From: a bacterium
Lineage (GTDB): Bacteria > UBA8248
Assembly (NCBI GenBank): GCA_030922375.1
Contig: JAVEPB010000040.1
Location: 1-33,836 of the forward strand
Reading direction: 5' to 3'
Length of the DNA: 33,836 nucleotides
In this document: positions 3,784-8,584 of the stretch, piece by piece
Layout: each line of letters starts with the position of its first letter
Position numbering within the stretch: position 1 is the stretch's first letter
Program-made: the position numbers and the translations under genes
Notes under the pieces: generated by a model
Seen by the model: the letters and a program-made list of their open reading frames with translations, nothing else
Databases searched by the model: none
Told to the model about the DNA's origin: nothing

Positions 3784-4209
3784 CTAGAAAGAAAAAGCGG
3801 AGGGAACAGGTTCAAGGGACTCCAGAAGACGCTCCTCAACGATCTCGACCAGTTTGGGGTGAAAGCCCAGGTGCCCGCCGAGGTGAATCTCGACGGCGGG
3901 GTGGCGGCGGCGGCCCTCTTCCATGAAGCGGGGCAGGTCTTTTTGCACATGGTTGCCCAGGTGCAGGAAGTAGGGCAGGAGAATGATTCGATCCGCGCCG
4001 GCCTCGGCGTGAAAATCGATTCCCTCGGGGATCGAGGGGGCGTTGATCTCGAGGAAGGCCGCGCTGAACCGATAAGCGGGCCATTTGATCTGGAGGCGGT
4101 GAACGACCTCGTACATGGCTCCGTTGGCCGCCTCCGCGCGGCTTCCATGGCCGAGGAGGAGGCCGGCCGTTTGACCCGAATCCTCCGGACCGCCGCTCAG
4201 GACATGCAC
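3784..4209 (-). CDS. CbiX/SirB-type sirohydrochlorin chelatase
   Basis: This protein of about 141 residues is of the CbiX/SirB family, which inserts Fe2+ (or Co2+) into sirohydrochlorin. It shows the family opening L-L-L-G-H-G-S-R, the strand R-I-I-L-L-P-Y-F-L-H-L-G-N-H-V, whose second His is the expected metal-binding residue, and G-G-H-L-G-F-H-P-K-L near the end. One domain of this length matches the short CbiX form. The likely start is GTG 4209, overlapping the last codons of the reductase gene (ends 4197), with GGGGGAAGG just upstream; translational coupling is likely. With uroporphyrinogen-III synthase and the siroheme reductase in the same operon, the ferrochelatase role in siroheme synthesis is the best reading. 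The methyltransferase/dehydrogenase steps (CysG/CobA type) are not in the window. Confidence 0.88.
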   Translation of the reverse strand: MHVLSGGPEDSGQTAGLLLGHGSRAEAANGAMYEVVHRLQIKWPAYRFSAAFLEINAPSIPEGIDFHAEAGADRIILLPYFLHLGNHVQKDLPRFMEEGRRRHPAVEIHLGGHLGFHPKLVEIVEERLLESLEPVPSAFSF

Positions 4210-5999
4210 TCGCCTTCCCCCCGTTCGAGCACATAGGGCTCCGACCGGTTCCAGTCGATAAACAGGTCGGGGTCGTCTCCGAACTGGCCGCCGACATGGA
4301 GATCCCGAAGGGCTTCCTCGAAAGGTGCCTTTCCTGCGCGCGCATAGAACTCGTTGAAGCGCTCTCCGGCCAGCCGCTCTCTCAGGTAGAGGGCGAGGAT
4401 TTTCTTGAGCCCCTCGGGAACGCGCTTCGCCGGCAGACGAATGGAAATCCGGTCGCCGAGGCGCGTGTTTCCCCCGGTGTTCTCGTATTGTCCGCCGAGG
4501 AAAATTTCGTAGGCCGGTAGCATTTTCCCCTCCGCCCGGAGCGTTCCGCCGTGGAAGCCGATGTTGGCGAGATGGTGCTGGCCGCACGAATTCGGGCAGC
4601 CGCTCATCTTGATGTGCATCTCGCGGATGAGCGGGTCGTCGATGTTCATCTCCTTGAGCGTCTGGATGAGTTCCCCGCCCAGGCCCATGGAGGCGGTGAT
4701 TCCGAGCTTGCACGAGTCGGTCCCCGGGCAGGAGACGATGTCGGTGATCTCGTGCGCCCCCGCCTCGCCGAGCCCGGCCCGGCCGAGGTCGCGCCAGAGG
4801 GCGTAAAGATCTTCGTCCCGGACCCAGCGAAAGACGATATTTTGCTCAAAGCTCGTCCGGGCGCGGCCGCGCGAGTAGCGCCGGCTGATATCGGCCAGGC
4901 GGTAGAACTGGTCCGCCTCGATGTCCCCGAGGGGAATGCCCACCTCTACGGCATGGTAACCGGGCTGACGCTGCTCCCTGACGTTCTTGCTCCGCCATAC
5001 CGAAAAAGCCCACGAGTCGCCGTTCGGGCTCGCTGCGTTGCCGTTCATCGGCAGCGCCGCCGCGGGGAGGTCCGCCTCCTCGTCGTCCACCCAGAGGTAG
5101 GGGGTGGGATCGATGGGCGAGCTCGCCCATTCTTTCTTGAGTTCGTTCTCGACGCGCTCCTTGATCCCGTCGATGCCGATCCAGGAGACGAGGAATTTGA
5201 TGCGCGCCTTGAACCGGGTCTTGCGGAGCTCGCTGGAGTCGTTGAAGACCCGGAGGATCGCCTCGCTCACCCGAAGAAAATCGGCGACCGGAACAAAATC
5301 GTAAAGCACCTCGGCCGGCCGGGGCAGGGTGGCCAGGCCTCCTCCCACAAGAAGGCGGAAACCCTTGACCCGCTCGCCCGCCGCCTCGCGGATAACGGGG
5401 ATGAAGCCGAGGTCGTGGATTCCGGCGATAACATCGTCCGCGGCGGTGCTCGAAAAGGCCACCTTCCATTTCCGGGGAAGATCCTGGACCAAGGGCTTGC
5501 GGACGAAGTAGCGCACGAAGGCTCCGGCATAGGGAGTGGGGTCGAAAACCTCGTTCTTGTCGACGCCGGCGTAGGGCGAGCCGGTCACGTTGCGCACACA
5601 GTTTCCGCAGGCCTCCCTGGTGGAGAGGCCGGCCGCCCCCACGATTCTCAGAATCTCGGACGCCTGCTCGAGAGGAATGAAATGGTATTGAACATTTTCG
5701 CGGGTGGTGACGTGGCCCTTGTTCAGCGGCGCGAAGTCCCGGGCGACTTGCCCCAGGGCCTCGAGCTGGTCCGCCGTGACCCCGCCGAAGGGAAGTTTCA
5801 CCCGGACCATCTGGACGTCCGACTGCCGTTGGCCGTAGACCCCGCGCTTGAGGCGGTAGCCCATGAACTCTTTTTCGTCGAGGGTGCCGCCGCGGAACTT
5901 CGCCGCCTCGGTCTCGAAGTCGTCGAACTCCTCGGGCAGTATCGGAATCACCGCCCGGGCCTTGGTTTCATCGGCATATGGTGTGGATTGCGGGCTCAT
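4197..5999 (-). CDS. Ferredoxin-type nitrite/sulfite reductase (siroheme, 4Fe-4S)
   Basis: This 600-residue enzyme of the NirA/Sir family carries out six-electron reduction of nitrite to ammonia or sulfite to sulfide. It has two repeated ferredoxin-like and siroheme domains. The first half includes R-G-V-Y-G-Q-R and H-V-T-T-R-E-N-V-Q-Y-H-F, arginine-rich siroheme contacts. The 4Fe-4S ligands are C424 and C430 (C-P-G-T-D-S-C) and C468 and C472 (M-S-G-C-P-N-S-C-G-Q-H), the C-x5-C...C-x3-C family pattern. ATG 5999 is chosen because GGAGAAAGAA lies directly upstream; the frame is open to 6074 but without a better site. It follows hemD by 71 bases and overlaps cbiX. Nitrite versus sulfite as substrate is not settled by the visible motifs. 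Confidence 0.93.
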   Translation of the reverse strand: MSPQSTPYADETKARAVIPILPEEFDDFETEAAKFRGGTLDEKEFMGYRLKRGVYGQRQSDVQMVRVKLPFGGVTADQLEALGQVARDFAPLNKGHVTTRENVQYHFIPLEQASEILRIVGAAGLSTREACGNCVRNVTGSPYAGVDKNEVFDPTPYAGAFVRYFVRKPLVQDLPRKWKVAFSSTAADDVIAGIHDLGFIPVIREAAGERVKGFRLLVGGGLATLPRPAEVLYDFVPVADFLRVSEAILRVFNDSSELRKTRFKARIKFLVSWIGIDGIKERVENELKKEWASSPIDPTPYLWVDDEEADLPAAALPMNGNAASPNGDSWAFSVWRSKNVREQRQPGYHAVEVGIPLGDIEADQFYRLADISRRYSRGRARTSFEQNIVFRWVRDEDLYALWRDLGRAGLGEAGAHEITDIVSCPGTDSCKLGITASMGLGGELIQTLKEMNIDDPLIREMHIKMSGCPNSCGQHHLANIGFHGGTLRAEGKMLPAYEIFLGGQYENTGGNTRLGDRISIRLPAKRVPEGLKKILALYLRERLAGERFNEFYARAGKAPFEEALRDLHVGGQFGDDPDLFIDWNRSEPYVLERGEGECMS

Positions 6000-6070
6000 T
6001 TCTTTCTCCTGGTGGTTATCGGCTTTTCTAGGAGCCGGAATTTTGTATAAATTCTTCTTACTCTCAAGGG

Positions 6071-6904
6071 TCAACTTTTTTCGACCGGGTACATTCGCGC
6101 GAGATCCTGAAGCAGACCGCCCATCCGCTGGCTTTCAGCCTCGAGGGCGGGCTCGACCCCGTTCTCGCGGATCGCATCGCTCGTCACCGGGCCGATCGAG
6201 GCCGTGGCGACACTTTCGTTCAGAGCGGCGGTCAACTCCTCGGCCTGGCCCGTCTCGTCCGCCGCGCCGAAAAGATTATTCACCGCCGGTGGGCTGGTGA
6301 ACGTGATGGCGTCGATTCCGCCATCGAGAAGGCGGCCGATAAGTCGGGAGACGGCCCCGGGGTCCTCGGACGGGAGGATCCGGTAGGGGGAGCCGTGAAT
6401 CAGCCGCACTCCGTAGGGAGCGAGGGCCCGGGGAAGGGCGCTTGGCATCGCTCCCGGCGTTTGGATGAATACCGAGGCGCCGTTCCCCCCGGCTTCGGTG
6501 ATTTCCCCGGCTTCGGTTAGAGACGCGATGACGCCCTCGGTGGTTCCCGGCTCGGCCTGGTAGTCGGGCGGCCGGCCACCCTCCCTGAGCGCCCGTAGGG
6601 CTTTTCTTCCACGTGAGAGGACCTTGGCGGCCTTGAGGCTCTCGAGATAGGCTCCGGCACAGCCGATCCTTTCTGCGGCATCGAATAGGGCCCGGACACC
6701 CACCCCGGTATAGAAAACCGCCCAGTCCACTCCCCCGATAACTTCCCTGACCAGACGCTCGGCCTCTTGGGTTGAATCCTCGAAGCGAAGGCTCACTGTT
6801 GAGGCGATATAGGGCTCTCCTCCCAAGCGGCGGACCAGCTCCGACATCTCGCCGGCGCGCCGCTGGCCAGTGATGGCGATAATGCGGCCGTCAAGACTGG
6901 GCAA
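6071..6904 (-). CDS. hemD: Uroporphyrinogen-III synthase
   Basis: This 277-residue protein matches HemD, which cyclises hydroxymethylbilane to uroporphyrinogen III, the branch point to heme and siroheme. It opens with L-D-G-R-I-I-A-I-T-G-Q-R-R-A-G-E-M, a typical HemD first strand. The family's V-F-Y-T-G-V-G-V-R and I-T-F-T-S-P-P-A-V-N-N-L segments are present, with A-S-I-G-P-V-T-S-D-A-I-R-E-N-G in the C-terminal part (the G-P-x-T signature). Sequence between motifs is poorly conserved, as usual for HemD. The start is taken as TTG 6904, inside the 3-prime end of the zinc-ribbon gene, implying coupling. The same operon continues with a siroheme enzyme and chelatase, so this copy probably serves siroheme supply. 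Confidence 0.88.
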   Translation of the reverse strand: MPSLDGRIIAITGQRRAGEMSELVRRLGGEPYIASTVSLRFEDSTQEAERLVREVIGGVDWAVFYTGVGVRALFDAAERIGCAGAYLESLKAAKVLSRGRKALRALREGGRPPDYQAEPGTTEGVIASLTEAGEITEAGGNGASVFIQTPGAMPSALPRALAPYGVRLIHGSPYRILPSEDPGAVSRLIGRLLDGGIDAITFTSPPAVNNLFGAADETGQAEELTAALNESVATASIGPVTSDAIRENGVEPALEAESQRMGGLLQDLARMYPVEKS

Positions 6905-7103
6905 CGAGGATACGCTTTTGATACGCGGGGGATTGAATTTCCCATTTTATTTCAATGGTTTGGGGAGGAATCGCGAGTGATTGACCTCCCGCCAGGAACT
7001 CCCAGTCACGGCACCTGTCGCAAACCGGGCCGAAGGGGCCAATATGGTCCGTGGGGGAGAATTCACCGCATTCCGTGCATTCGACTGCCTGTAGTTTGCT
7101 CAT
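6891..7103 (-). CDS. Small zinc-ribbon protein heading the siroheme operon
   Basis: This 70-residue protein starts at ATG 7103 (M-S-K-L-Q-A-V-E-C). It carries two C-x2-C knuckles, C9/C12 (C-T-E-C-G) and C28/C31 (C-D-R-C-R-D-W), spaced by 15 residues, a zinc-ribbon or rubredoxin-like metal site. The rest is a short beta-rich tail. It is the first gene of the operon that continues with hemD, the siroheme reductase and the chelatase, and it overlaps hemD by 14 bases. An AGGGG ribosome binding site precedes the start and a consensus-like promoter lies about 50 bases upstream. No family is recognised. It could be an electron carrier for the reductase, a metal chaperone or a regulator; these are guesses from context. 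Confidence 0.78.
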   Translation of the reverse strand: MSKLQAVECTECGEFSPTDHIGPFGPVCDRCRDWEFLAGGQSLAIPPQTIEIKWEIQSPAYQKRILVAQS

Positions 7104-7152
7104 GTCATTGCCCCTACAAAATAATGATTTTAACCTGACTGATACGTTCATA

Positions 7153-7181
7153 TATATTGCAAATAAGATACAGTCTGTCAA
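7153..7181 (-). promoter_or_regulatory. Probable sigma-70-type promoter of the siroheme operon
   Basis: On the minus strand TTGACA (7181-7176) matches the -35 consensus perfectly. A 17-base spacer leads to AATATA/TATATA (7158-7151) as the -10. The zinc-ribbon start codon lies about 50 bases downstream. Confidence 0.55.
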
Positions 7182-7316: not shown

Positions 7317-7970
7317 ATGAATATCACGATGTGGAATTGCTACGTCTGACCCTATGCATACCGGGCCACGGAGTGGCTCACTCGTCTTCAGGAAAAGGAC
7401 AAGGATCTCAGGGTGGACTGCAGGTCGTTTGTACTTGAGCAGGTGAATTTCGCCAGCGCGCGCGGTGAGGACTGGAAGGCATGGGAAGACAAGCGCATGG
7501 CCAGCCGCGACATCCCCTCGCTCGAGGCTTCGAAATGCGCCGCCCTTCAGGGTGAAGGCCAGTTCGCCAAATATCATGTCGCCCTCCACCGGGCGAAGCA
7601 TCGGGATGGAAAGGACATCACCAACCAGCTCGTCCTCCGGGACGTTGCTATCGAGGTGGGGCTCGACGTGGAGCGCTGGGAGGAGGACATGAAAAACGGC
7701 GCGGGCATTCCGCTCCTCGCCGCGGATCACGAAGAGGCCGAGGGCGAATACGGCGTTTTCGGGGTGCCGACCCTGCTCTTCGAAAGCGGTAATCCGGTTT
7801 TCGTGAAGCTCGAGGAAGGAGATTGGGAGGGACAGGACGACAAAGGACTACTCGATGCCGTCCGCGCCGCCTCGGTCGATCGCCCCTATGTACTCGAGTT
7901 GAAAACGCCCGAGTCCGCGAAGCGGGGTACCGCTGCGCAGGTGAAATATAAAGATTACGGCAAGAAATAA
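7317..7970 (+). CDS. DsbA/FrnE-like thioredoxin-fold protein with predicted selenocysteine
   Basis: ATG 7317 to TAA 7970 gives 217 residues if TGA 7347-7349 (codon 11) is read as selenocysteine. The N-terminus reads M-N-I-T-M-W-N-C-Y-V-U-P-Y-A-Y-R-A-T-E-W-L. This matches the first strand and active-site turn of DsbA/FrnE and HCCA-isomerase-like proteins, where C-P-x-C-Y or S-P-Y-x-Y is usual. U11 sits at the nucleophilic position, the second Cys is Ala14, and Cys8 makes a C-x2-U pair. The cis-proline motif G-V-P-T is at residues 149-152 (F-G-V-P-T-L-L-F-E), and a helical insert lies between, as in the family. The ribosome binding site AAGGGGAC precedes ATG 7317. Starting at internal GTG 7413 would delete the active site. 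A SECIS-like hairpin follows at 7363-7379. DUF971 begins 33 bases downstream. Substrate unknown; a thiol/selenol oxidoreductase is likely. Confidence 0.85.
7363..7379 (+). promoter_or_regulatory. Candidate bacterial SECIS hairpin (first selenoprotein)
   Basis: GGGCCAC (7363-7369) pairs with GTGGCTC (7373-7379) through seven pairs, one of them G-U, around the loop GGA. The loop G lies 20 bases after the TGA ending at 7349. Bacterial SECIS elements lie within the coding region just after UGA, with a small loop having G in its first two positions, so size, loop and spacing agree. Confidence 0.7.
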
Positions 7971-8003: not shown

Positions 8004-8351
8004 ATGACGACCGCCGAGGGGCACCGCCCCGTCGATTTAACGATGGACAAGACCGCCCGCGAGCTTCGGATCGAGTGGGCGGGGGGCGGCAAGAGCGTTT
8101 ACGGTTTCGATTATCTGGCGGCCATGTGCCCCTGCGCCAACTGCCGTGAGAAGCGGGCCGAGATGGAGAACAATCCGCTCCGCGTCGTATCGGACGAGCT
8201 CGGGCCCGCCGAGCTCGGGGACGCTTCGATGGTGGGCCGCTACGCCCTGAGCATCACCTGGCAGGCGGGTTGCGCGAGCGGCATCTACTCGTTCGATTAT
8301 CTCAGGTCCATCGATCCCGGAAATCTGGGCGAGGCCGGAGAAGGAAGTTAG
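8004..8351 (+). CDS. DUF971 (GBBH-like) domain protein
   Basis: This 115-residue protein matches DUF971. It has L-R-I-E-W-A-G-G, then Y-L-A-A-M-C-P-C-A-N-C-R-E-K-R with three clustered cysteines, and a final block Y-A-L-S-I-T-W-Q-A-G-C-A-S-G-I-Y-S-F-D-Y-L-R. In most family members the W-x2-G motif continues with His (G-H-x-S-G-I-Y), and here it is Cys. DUF971 resembles the N-terminal domain of gamma-butyrobetaine hydroxylase and is often found beside or fused to Mrp-type Fe-S carrier ATPases. A role in metal or Fe-S handling is suspected but not shown. It sits between two predicted selenoprotein genes, 33 bases after the first and 6 bases before the second, with a GGTGGGGAATA ribosome binding site. 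Confidence 0.88.
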   Translation: MTTAEGHRPVDLTMDKTARELRIEWAGGGKSVYGFDYLAAMCPCANCREKRAEMENNPLRVVSDELGPAELGDASMVGRYALSITWQAGCASGIYSFDYLRSIDPGNLGEAGEGS

Positions 8352-8357
8352 GGAGAG

Positions 8358-8537
8358 ATGCGCGTGAAATCCCAGGCGGCAGAGAAAGCTGAAACCACGG
8401 GGGAGGGGCAGGCTGCGGAGCGGGCTGACGCTCCCCGGAGCGAACCGGAGTATTGTCCGACCTGACTGAGCGGGCTCCTTTTTCTTCTGGTTCAGAAGGG
8501 TTTCAGGTGGGTCCGGAGGAAACTGGTACGGGCCTGA
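8358..8537 (+). CDS. Predicted 59-residue selenoprotein with C-P-T-U motif
   Basis: From ATG 8358 (or GTG 8364, better spaced from AGGGAG) the frame meets TGA 8463-8465 at codon 36 and continues to TGA 8535-8537. Read with selenocysteine it ends Y-C-P-T-U-L-S-G-L-L-F-L-L-V-Q-K-G-F-R, then a basic tail W-V-R-R-K-L-V-R-A. Cys33 and U36 form a C-x2-U redox pair like that of thioredoxin-type selenoproteins. The first 30 residues are charged, rich in Glu and Ala, and probably disordered. The segment after U is a short hydrophobic then strongly basic helix, perhaps amphipathic or membrane-associated. The gene starts 6 bases after DUF971 and a strong terminator begins 17 bases after its end, so the transcript is built to contain it. 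A SECIS-like hairpin follows the TGA. No family is recognised. The alternative is a meaningless 35-codon frame. Confidence 0.62.
8484..8498 (+). promoter_or_regulatory. Candidate bacterial SECIS hairpin (second selenoprotein)
   Basis: CTTCTG (8484-8489) pairs perfectly with CAGAAG (8493-8498) around the loop GTT, and two G-U pairs may extend the base. The loop G is 24 bases after the TGA ending at 8465, within the usual bacterial range. The three-base loop beginning with G parallels the hairpin at 7363. Confidence 0.65.
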
Positions 8538-8553
8538 GCGGTTGAGACATGCT

Positions 8554-8584
8554 CCCCCGGCCTCCCGGAGGCCGGGGGTTTTTT
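8554..8584 (+). terminator. Intrinsic terminator of the selenoprotein operon
   Basis: CCCCCGGCCT (8554-8563) pairs with AGGCCGGGGG (8569-8578), followed by six T (8579-8584). It starts 17 bases after the stop of the predicted small selenoprotein and precedes ridA. Confidence 0.95.

Follow-up and report, generated by a model that had tools for sequence, protein, structure and literature searches.

A very probable small C-P-T-U selenoprotein gene downstream of DUF971 in a DsbA-like selenoprotein operon of an uncultured bacterial phylum

Placement of a Cys-x-x-Sec pair at the N-terminal end of a helix is characteristic of thioredoxin-fold active sites, and Cys homologues, which most selenoprotein families have, are the usual support for selenoproteins without being strictly defining. 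The closest described proteins to the gene studied here are the CxxU selenoproteins of thioredoxin fold (SELENOW-like, PF10262, and Grx/Trx) and the CC/Se motif family selenoprotein (NF041239), a Sec family with a CxxU motif and a poorly understood function. At the level of gene organization, SAO and Tso are multi-selenoprotein operons (reviewed in PMC13188914). A further published family, 'DsbA-like protein form 2', carries domain PF01323 and the motif DxxUP (Table 1, PMC13188914). For the decoding signal, the published bSECIS consensus has G at the first two loop positions and lies 16-37 nt from the UGA, and the consensus SECIS model has a minimum free energy of -7.5 kcal/mol or lower (PMC13188914).

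In this work, we analysed a stretch of bacterial DNA of 33,836 nucleotides (hereafter the window). It contains a three-gene, two-selenoprotein operon, in which a DsbA-like CYVU selenoprotein gene (DsbA-U) is followed by a DUF971 gene and by a small gene whose product bears a C-P-T-U motif (CPTU). As in the SAO and Tso operons, several adjacent selenoprotein genes share one transcription unit, but the genes here are DsbA-U, DUF971 and CPTU. The features of the locus are as follows:

7317..7970, forward strand: DsbA-like selenoprotein with C-Y-V-U-P, first operon gene (PF01323, E 3.2e-17; UGA 7347-7349)
7363..7379, forward strand: SECIS-type hairpin of the DsbA-like gene (GGGCCAC-GGA-GUGGCUC, -9.2 kcal/mol)
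8004..8351, forward strand: DUF971 / GBBH-like_N protein, middle operon gene (PF06155, E 7.3e-18)
8364..8537, forward strand: very probable gene of a small selenoprotein (the CPTU protein); 57 codons if read from GTG, the likely start; alternative start ATG 8358
8463..8465, forward strand: putative Sec UGA codon of C-P-T-U, TGA in 14 of the 14 genomes with the gene
8466..8534, forward strand: conserved tail after the Sec codon, predicted to form a hydrophobic/basic helix, LSGLLFLLVQKGFRWVRRKLVRA (AlphaFold helix)
8482..8500, forward strand: bacterial SECIS-type hairpin, 7-bp stem 8482-8488/8494-8500, apical loop GGUUC 8489-8493
8554..8578, forward strand: intrinsic terminator after the CPTU gene, 11-bp stem and T6

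The original prediction had described a frame of 59 codons carrying C33-P-T-TGA36, placed 6 nt after DUF971, closed by a terminator and truncated by gene finders that take TGA as a stop. All of this holds on re-reading: positions 8358-8537 translate as MRVKSQAAEKAETTGEGQAAERADAPRSEPEYCPTULSGLLFLLVQKGFRWVRRKLVRA (59 codons and a TGA stop), with the internal TGA at 8463-8465; DUF971 ends at 8351; the terminator starts at 8554, i.e. 16 nt past the end of the frame; and ordinary gene calling cuts the CPTU protein short at the internal TGA. The start codon is probably GTG 8364 rather than ATG 8358, because the closest relative (G002) has no start codon at the position of ATG 8358, the aligned codon being a Thr codon ('GETRVKSQ'), but keeps the GTG. 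At this second position, +6 from ATG 8358, GTG is found in the genome of the window (G000) and in G002, and ATG in G001.

The upstream DsbA-U gene, co-directional and immediately preceding DUF971, had been missed at first. When TGA 7347-7349 is read through, its N-terminus becomes MNITMWNCYVUPYAYRA; ordinary gene calling sets the start at GTG 7413, and the active site is lost. The TGA is kept in 12 of 12 family loci examined and in three genomes of other phyla, and the hairpin of this gene, with 20 nt from UGA to loop, has the textbook SECIS form. DsbA-U preceded DUF971 in each of the 12 loci tested, and the order DsbA-U, DUF971, CPTU was constant. The gene shares the PF01323 domain and the U-P motif with DsbA-like form 2, and xxxUP was found in the 12 loci; the difference, in a comparison made by motif and domain, is that the motif opens with Cys where form 2 has Asp (C-Y-V-U-P). 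Because the relative in G049 has D-Y-L-U-P, i.e. a match to the published DxxUP, this neighbour is, on sequence grounds, probably a selenoprotein of known kind or close to it.

The distribution of CPTU was assessed in 18 genomes of one uncultured phylum (Nitrospinota/Tectomicrobia, UBA8248-type), all of one family by kinship. A pattern such as that at 8463-8465 is in itself not rare: 16 of the 804 TGAs of the whole window combine a C/U redox motif, an open frame and some bSECIS-type hairpin, and in six of these 16 the hairpin is at least as stable as that of CPTU. By our comparisons, it is conservation in relatives, and not the single-sequence pattern, that raises CPTU above chance. A search with the single CPTU protein retrieved relatives at E 5e-29, 3e-19 and 4e-14, and the gene was present in 14 of the 18 genomes, directly downstream of DUF971 in every genome where both share a contig. 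The four others are G005, with no DUF971 match either; G008, whose contig stops 78 nt past DUF971; G013, which is 67% complete; and G006, in which DUF971 is followed by an aconitase-type gene. As G006 keeps DsbA-U and DUF971 without CPTU, the latter is not essential to the pair.

All 14 genomes with the gene have C-P-T-TGA, and neither TAA, TAG, Cys nor a frameshift was found at the Sec site in any of them. The codons for Cys (TGT/TGC), Pro (CCG/CCC/CCA) and Thr (ACC/ACG) vary synonymously around the invariant TGA, and the final stop is itself variable (TGA in four genomes, TAG in six, TAA in three, one contig ending earlier). Over the tail, genus g1 had a pooled dN/dS of 0.24 and genus g4 one of 0.30. 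The columns that vary after the TGA fell at codon positions 1/2/3 in the ratio 11/7/16 (g1) and 3/2/8 (g4), a bias that is gone beyond the final stop (13/12/13 and 11/13/11, respectively). Judged by these substitution patterns, the frame past the TGA is under purifying selection. A general code change, in which TGA would be a sense codon, was ruled out by the DUF971 gene, which ends in TGA in most relatives.

The TGA might also be an ordinary stop that closes a peptide of 33-35 codons ending in CPT, the downstream region being conserved as a 3' element of the RNA, with a regulatory or terminator-linked role. The presence of a conserved hairpin and the constraint on synonymous sites in g4 would agree with this, but the product would then be the unconserved half of the frame and the conserved half would be left untranslated: amino-acid identity was 0.33 (g1) and 0.40 (g4) over the 20 residues before CPTU, against 0.69 and 0.90 over the 20 residues after it. 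Further evidence against it comes from the changes after the TGA, which are biased to third positions and keep the frame as far as the variable TGA/TAG/TAA stop, from the Sec machinery of the genome and from the second conserved UGA gene in the same operon. We therefore regard an ordinary stop as highly improbable.

The same genome encodes tRNA-Sec (74 bits, anticodon TCA), SelB (369 bits) and SelD (348 bits), and SelB was found in 15 of the 18 phylum genomes. For SelA, the match was weak and below the cut-off (49 bits; L185, G000:C49:60138-60617) in this draft of 272 contigs; this may reflect a gap in the assembly, the preferred explanation, or else a selenocysteine synthase of divergent sequence. 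The SelD frame (L186, G000:C111:14503-15465) holds one in-frame TGA, and from its sequence SelD of this genome is probably itself a selenoprotein.

Downstream of the UGA, the hairpins of g1 and g6 have the apical loop GGUUC, GGUCA, GGUC or GGUCU (the last in two relatives) at 23-24 nt, and both loops and spacing fit the published consensus (PMC13188914). The g4 element is different, with a 5-bp stem and the loop CGUGGC at 20 nt, and minimum-energy folds do not strongly favour it; in this genus a run of consecutive columns through the hairpin is invariant, third codon positions included, as expected for an RNA signal overlapping a code. When seven sequences are aligned, 98% of the cells are paired and two of the seven pairs are changed on both sides, while slid controls fare worse. 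The same covariation was reached in 13 of 500 shuffles of these seven related sequences, and we take the compensatory changes as supportive, not conclusive. The upper hairpin alone reached -7.5 kcal/mol in five of 14 cases and has a modest -5.7 kcal/mol in the window. The fold of the 52 nt from the UGA in the window gave -14.4, a value that GC-rich sequence easily reaches, and a 50-nt fold of the window RNA was no more stable than shuffles (z +1.5).

Conservation, Sec machinery, the SECIS-type hairpin and the lack of a family match (see below) together support the original prediction of a new small selenoprotein, which had named the loss of the frame past the TGA, frameshifts or TAA/TAG at the site in relatives as evidence against itself; the 14 genomes go the other way, with an in-frame UGA conserved and coding on both sides. 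We consider it very likely that 8364-8537 is a genuine small selenoprotein gene with Sec at UGA 8463-8465, a degree of confidence that covers identity and not mechanism.

Complete CPTU proteins have 46-64 residues. Structure prediction was done with AlphaFold using 11 aligned relatives and Cys substituted for Sec. The N-terminus was of low confidence (block pLDDT 42-50), and a single helix was predicted at residues 34-58 (block pLDDT 73, 90 and 80), with C-P-T-U at its N-terminus. A hydrophobic, Arg/Lys-rich helix after the TGA had been proposed from the outset, in agreement with this model and with the hydrophobic character and net charge (+3 to +6) of the tail; its hydrophobic moment is marginally above that of shuffles (p 0.04-0.09). 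In this model, the N-terminal stretch, which is poorly conserved, is probably disordered and leads into a single predicted helix, basic and hydrophobic and some 25 residues long, with C-P-T-U in its first turn.

The Cys/Sec pair at a helix N-terminus and the SECIS hairpin shortly 3' of the UGA are shared with the CxxU selenoproteins of thioredoxin fold. CPTU differs from them in having a single predicted helix, no beta sheet and no profile match, and neither profiles nor a PDB search with the CPTU protein placed it in the SELENOW/Rdx group or in a thioredoxin fold. The CC/Se motif family resembles it as a CxxU Sec family, but gave no profile match even at E<=1, nor did the other NCBIfam selenoprotein families with three representatives as queries. 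More generally, the first impression that no family has this layout was borne out by the resources searched: Pfam and NCBIfam profiles had no match at E<=1 (for NCBIfam, 0 families with the three representatives), the PDB had none, PHROGs gave only one borderline match for one CPTU member (E 0.058), and none of the 119 selenoprotein families catalogued in 2026 fits by name, motif and domain (Table 1, PMC13188914). Literature linking selenoproteins with DUF971 was not found in a search that left subscription journals mostly uncovered, and an earlier description is possible.

Outside the phylum, no convincing relative of CPTU was found among 368 genomes, nor in the viral contigs and phage records searched. 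The neighbours of the DsbA-U gene were inspected in G065, G112 and G049, and the CPTU gene was absent beside it; in the phyla to which G065 and G112 belong, profile searches spanned one and five genomes, respectively, and say little. Cys homologues (C-P-T-C) downstream of DUF971, which had been suggested as a check, did not appear: no such form was found in the 18 phylum genomes, the 368 other genomes or the 28 DUF971 loci inspected. Weak matches to the CPTU profile were rejected as relatives, i.e. CPTC segments inside long open frames in G199 and G054 (563 and 594 aa), a match within a 133-aa frame in G333, and a 25-aa frame amid many stops in G343. Matches to C-x-x-[CU] near DUF971 in other phyla were chance-like only.

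For the function of CPTU, we propose a mechanism in which SelB and tRNA-Sec would decode UGA 8463-8465 as Sec under the direction of hairpin 8482-8500, as conservation and machinery suggest. Cys33 and Sec36 (numbered from ATG 8358) would then form a redox pair of the selenenylsulfide/dithiol type, the helix N-terminus would activate the selenol of Sec36, and the basic helix would hold the protein at the membrane surface or on a partner. From the operon context, electrons or selenosulfide equivalents might pass to or from DsbA-U and/or the cysteine-rich DUF971 protein. That CPTU is a minimal selenol/thiol redox relay working with DsbA-U/DUF971 is a reading that we hold tentatively.

A genuine selenoprotein could instead use its Cys-x-x-Sec to bind metals or metalloids (Hg, Cu, Zn, As), serving as a small chaperone or a scavenger and not as a redox relay. 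Known families use CxxC/CxxU pairs for both jobs, the catalogue includes a selenoprotein with C/SxxU and a putative role in mercuric transport (PMC13188914), and CPTU has a single Cys-Sec pair and no fold, all of which would suit such a role; but no adjoining transporter, reductase or metal regulator was found, and its constant neighbours encode a DsbA-like oxidoreductase and DUF971, so that we judge metal binding unlikely.

DUF971 proteins of many other phyla have a second CPCxxC at the C-terminus, after FDYLR (FDYLRxLCPCxxC; L103, L104, L109, L110, L115, L119, L127), a motif missing from DUF971 in the phylum studied here. The iron-sulfur scaffold protein HCF101 contains a DUF971 domain (e.g. 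PMC7980591), so an iron-sulfur role is possible. CPTU might be a small subunit of the DUF971 protein, here of iron-sulfur carrier type, or a clip on it, and replace the second CPCxxC. The absence of this motif where the CPTU gene directly follows is what speaks for such a subunit, whereas G006 has neither the C-terminal motif nor CPTU, the similarity is limited to C-P and the gene order could be due to chance; this explanation appears rather improbable.

To return to the redox relay, the fullest form of that proposal is a seemingly Cys-form-free family of one phylum, with a disordered leader and a basic helix that starts with C-x-x-U; tethered to a membrane or partner and without a fold, the protein would serve a DsbA-U/DUF971 redox or iron-sulfur module as a selenol relay. 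We put this forward as a somewhat doubtful possibility; if it is true, few of the natural CxxU redox proteins known would be as minimal as CPTU, and a redox role would make it a natural minimal model for the tuning of a Cys-x-x-Sec pair by a helix N-terminus. Irrespective of mechanism, CPTU looks like a new family within a known class, that of selenoproteins, unusual in its size, its lack of a fold and its lack of a Cys form. It is of a type missed by standard methods, i.e. very short, devoid of a domain or a Cys homologue, and cut short in gene calling. Sec, it suggests, can be accommodated by a chain of about 46-57 residues that lacks a thioredoxin fold, and the locus defines an operon in which two selenoprotein genes accompany DUF971, a little-understood domain linked to iron-sulfur proteins.

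Finally, the surroundings of the operon were named by reading the sequences. On the divergent side, the minus-strand genes at 4197-7181 of the window presumably encode sulfite/nitrite reductase-type, HemD-like and small zinc-ribbon-like proteins, and what we take to be the reductase-type gene adjoins the operon on that side in family loci too. In g4, the DsbA-U gene is preceded by a co-directional gene (L095 3532-4179) that may be DUF4202-like.
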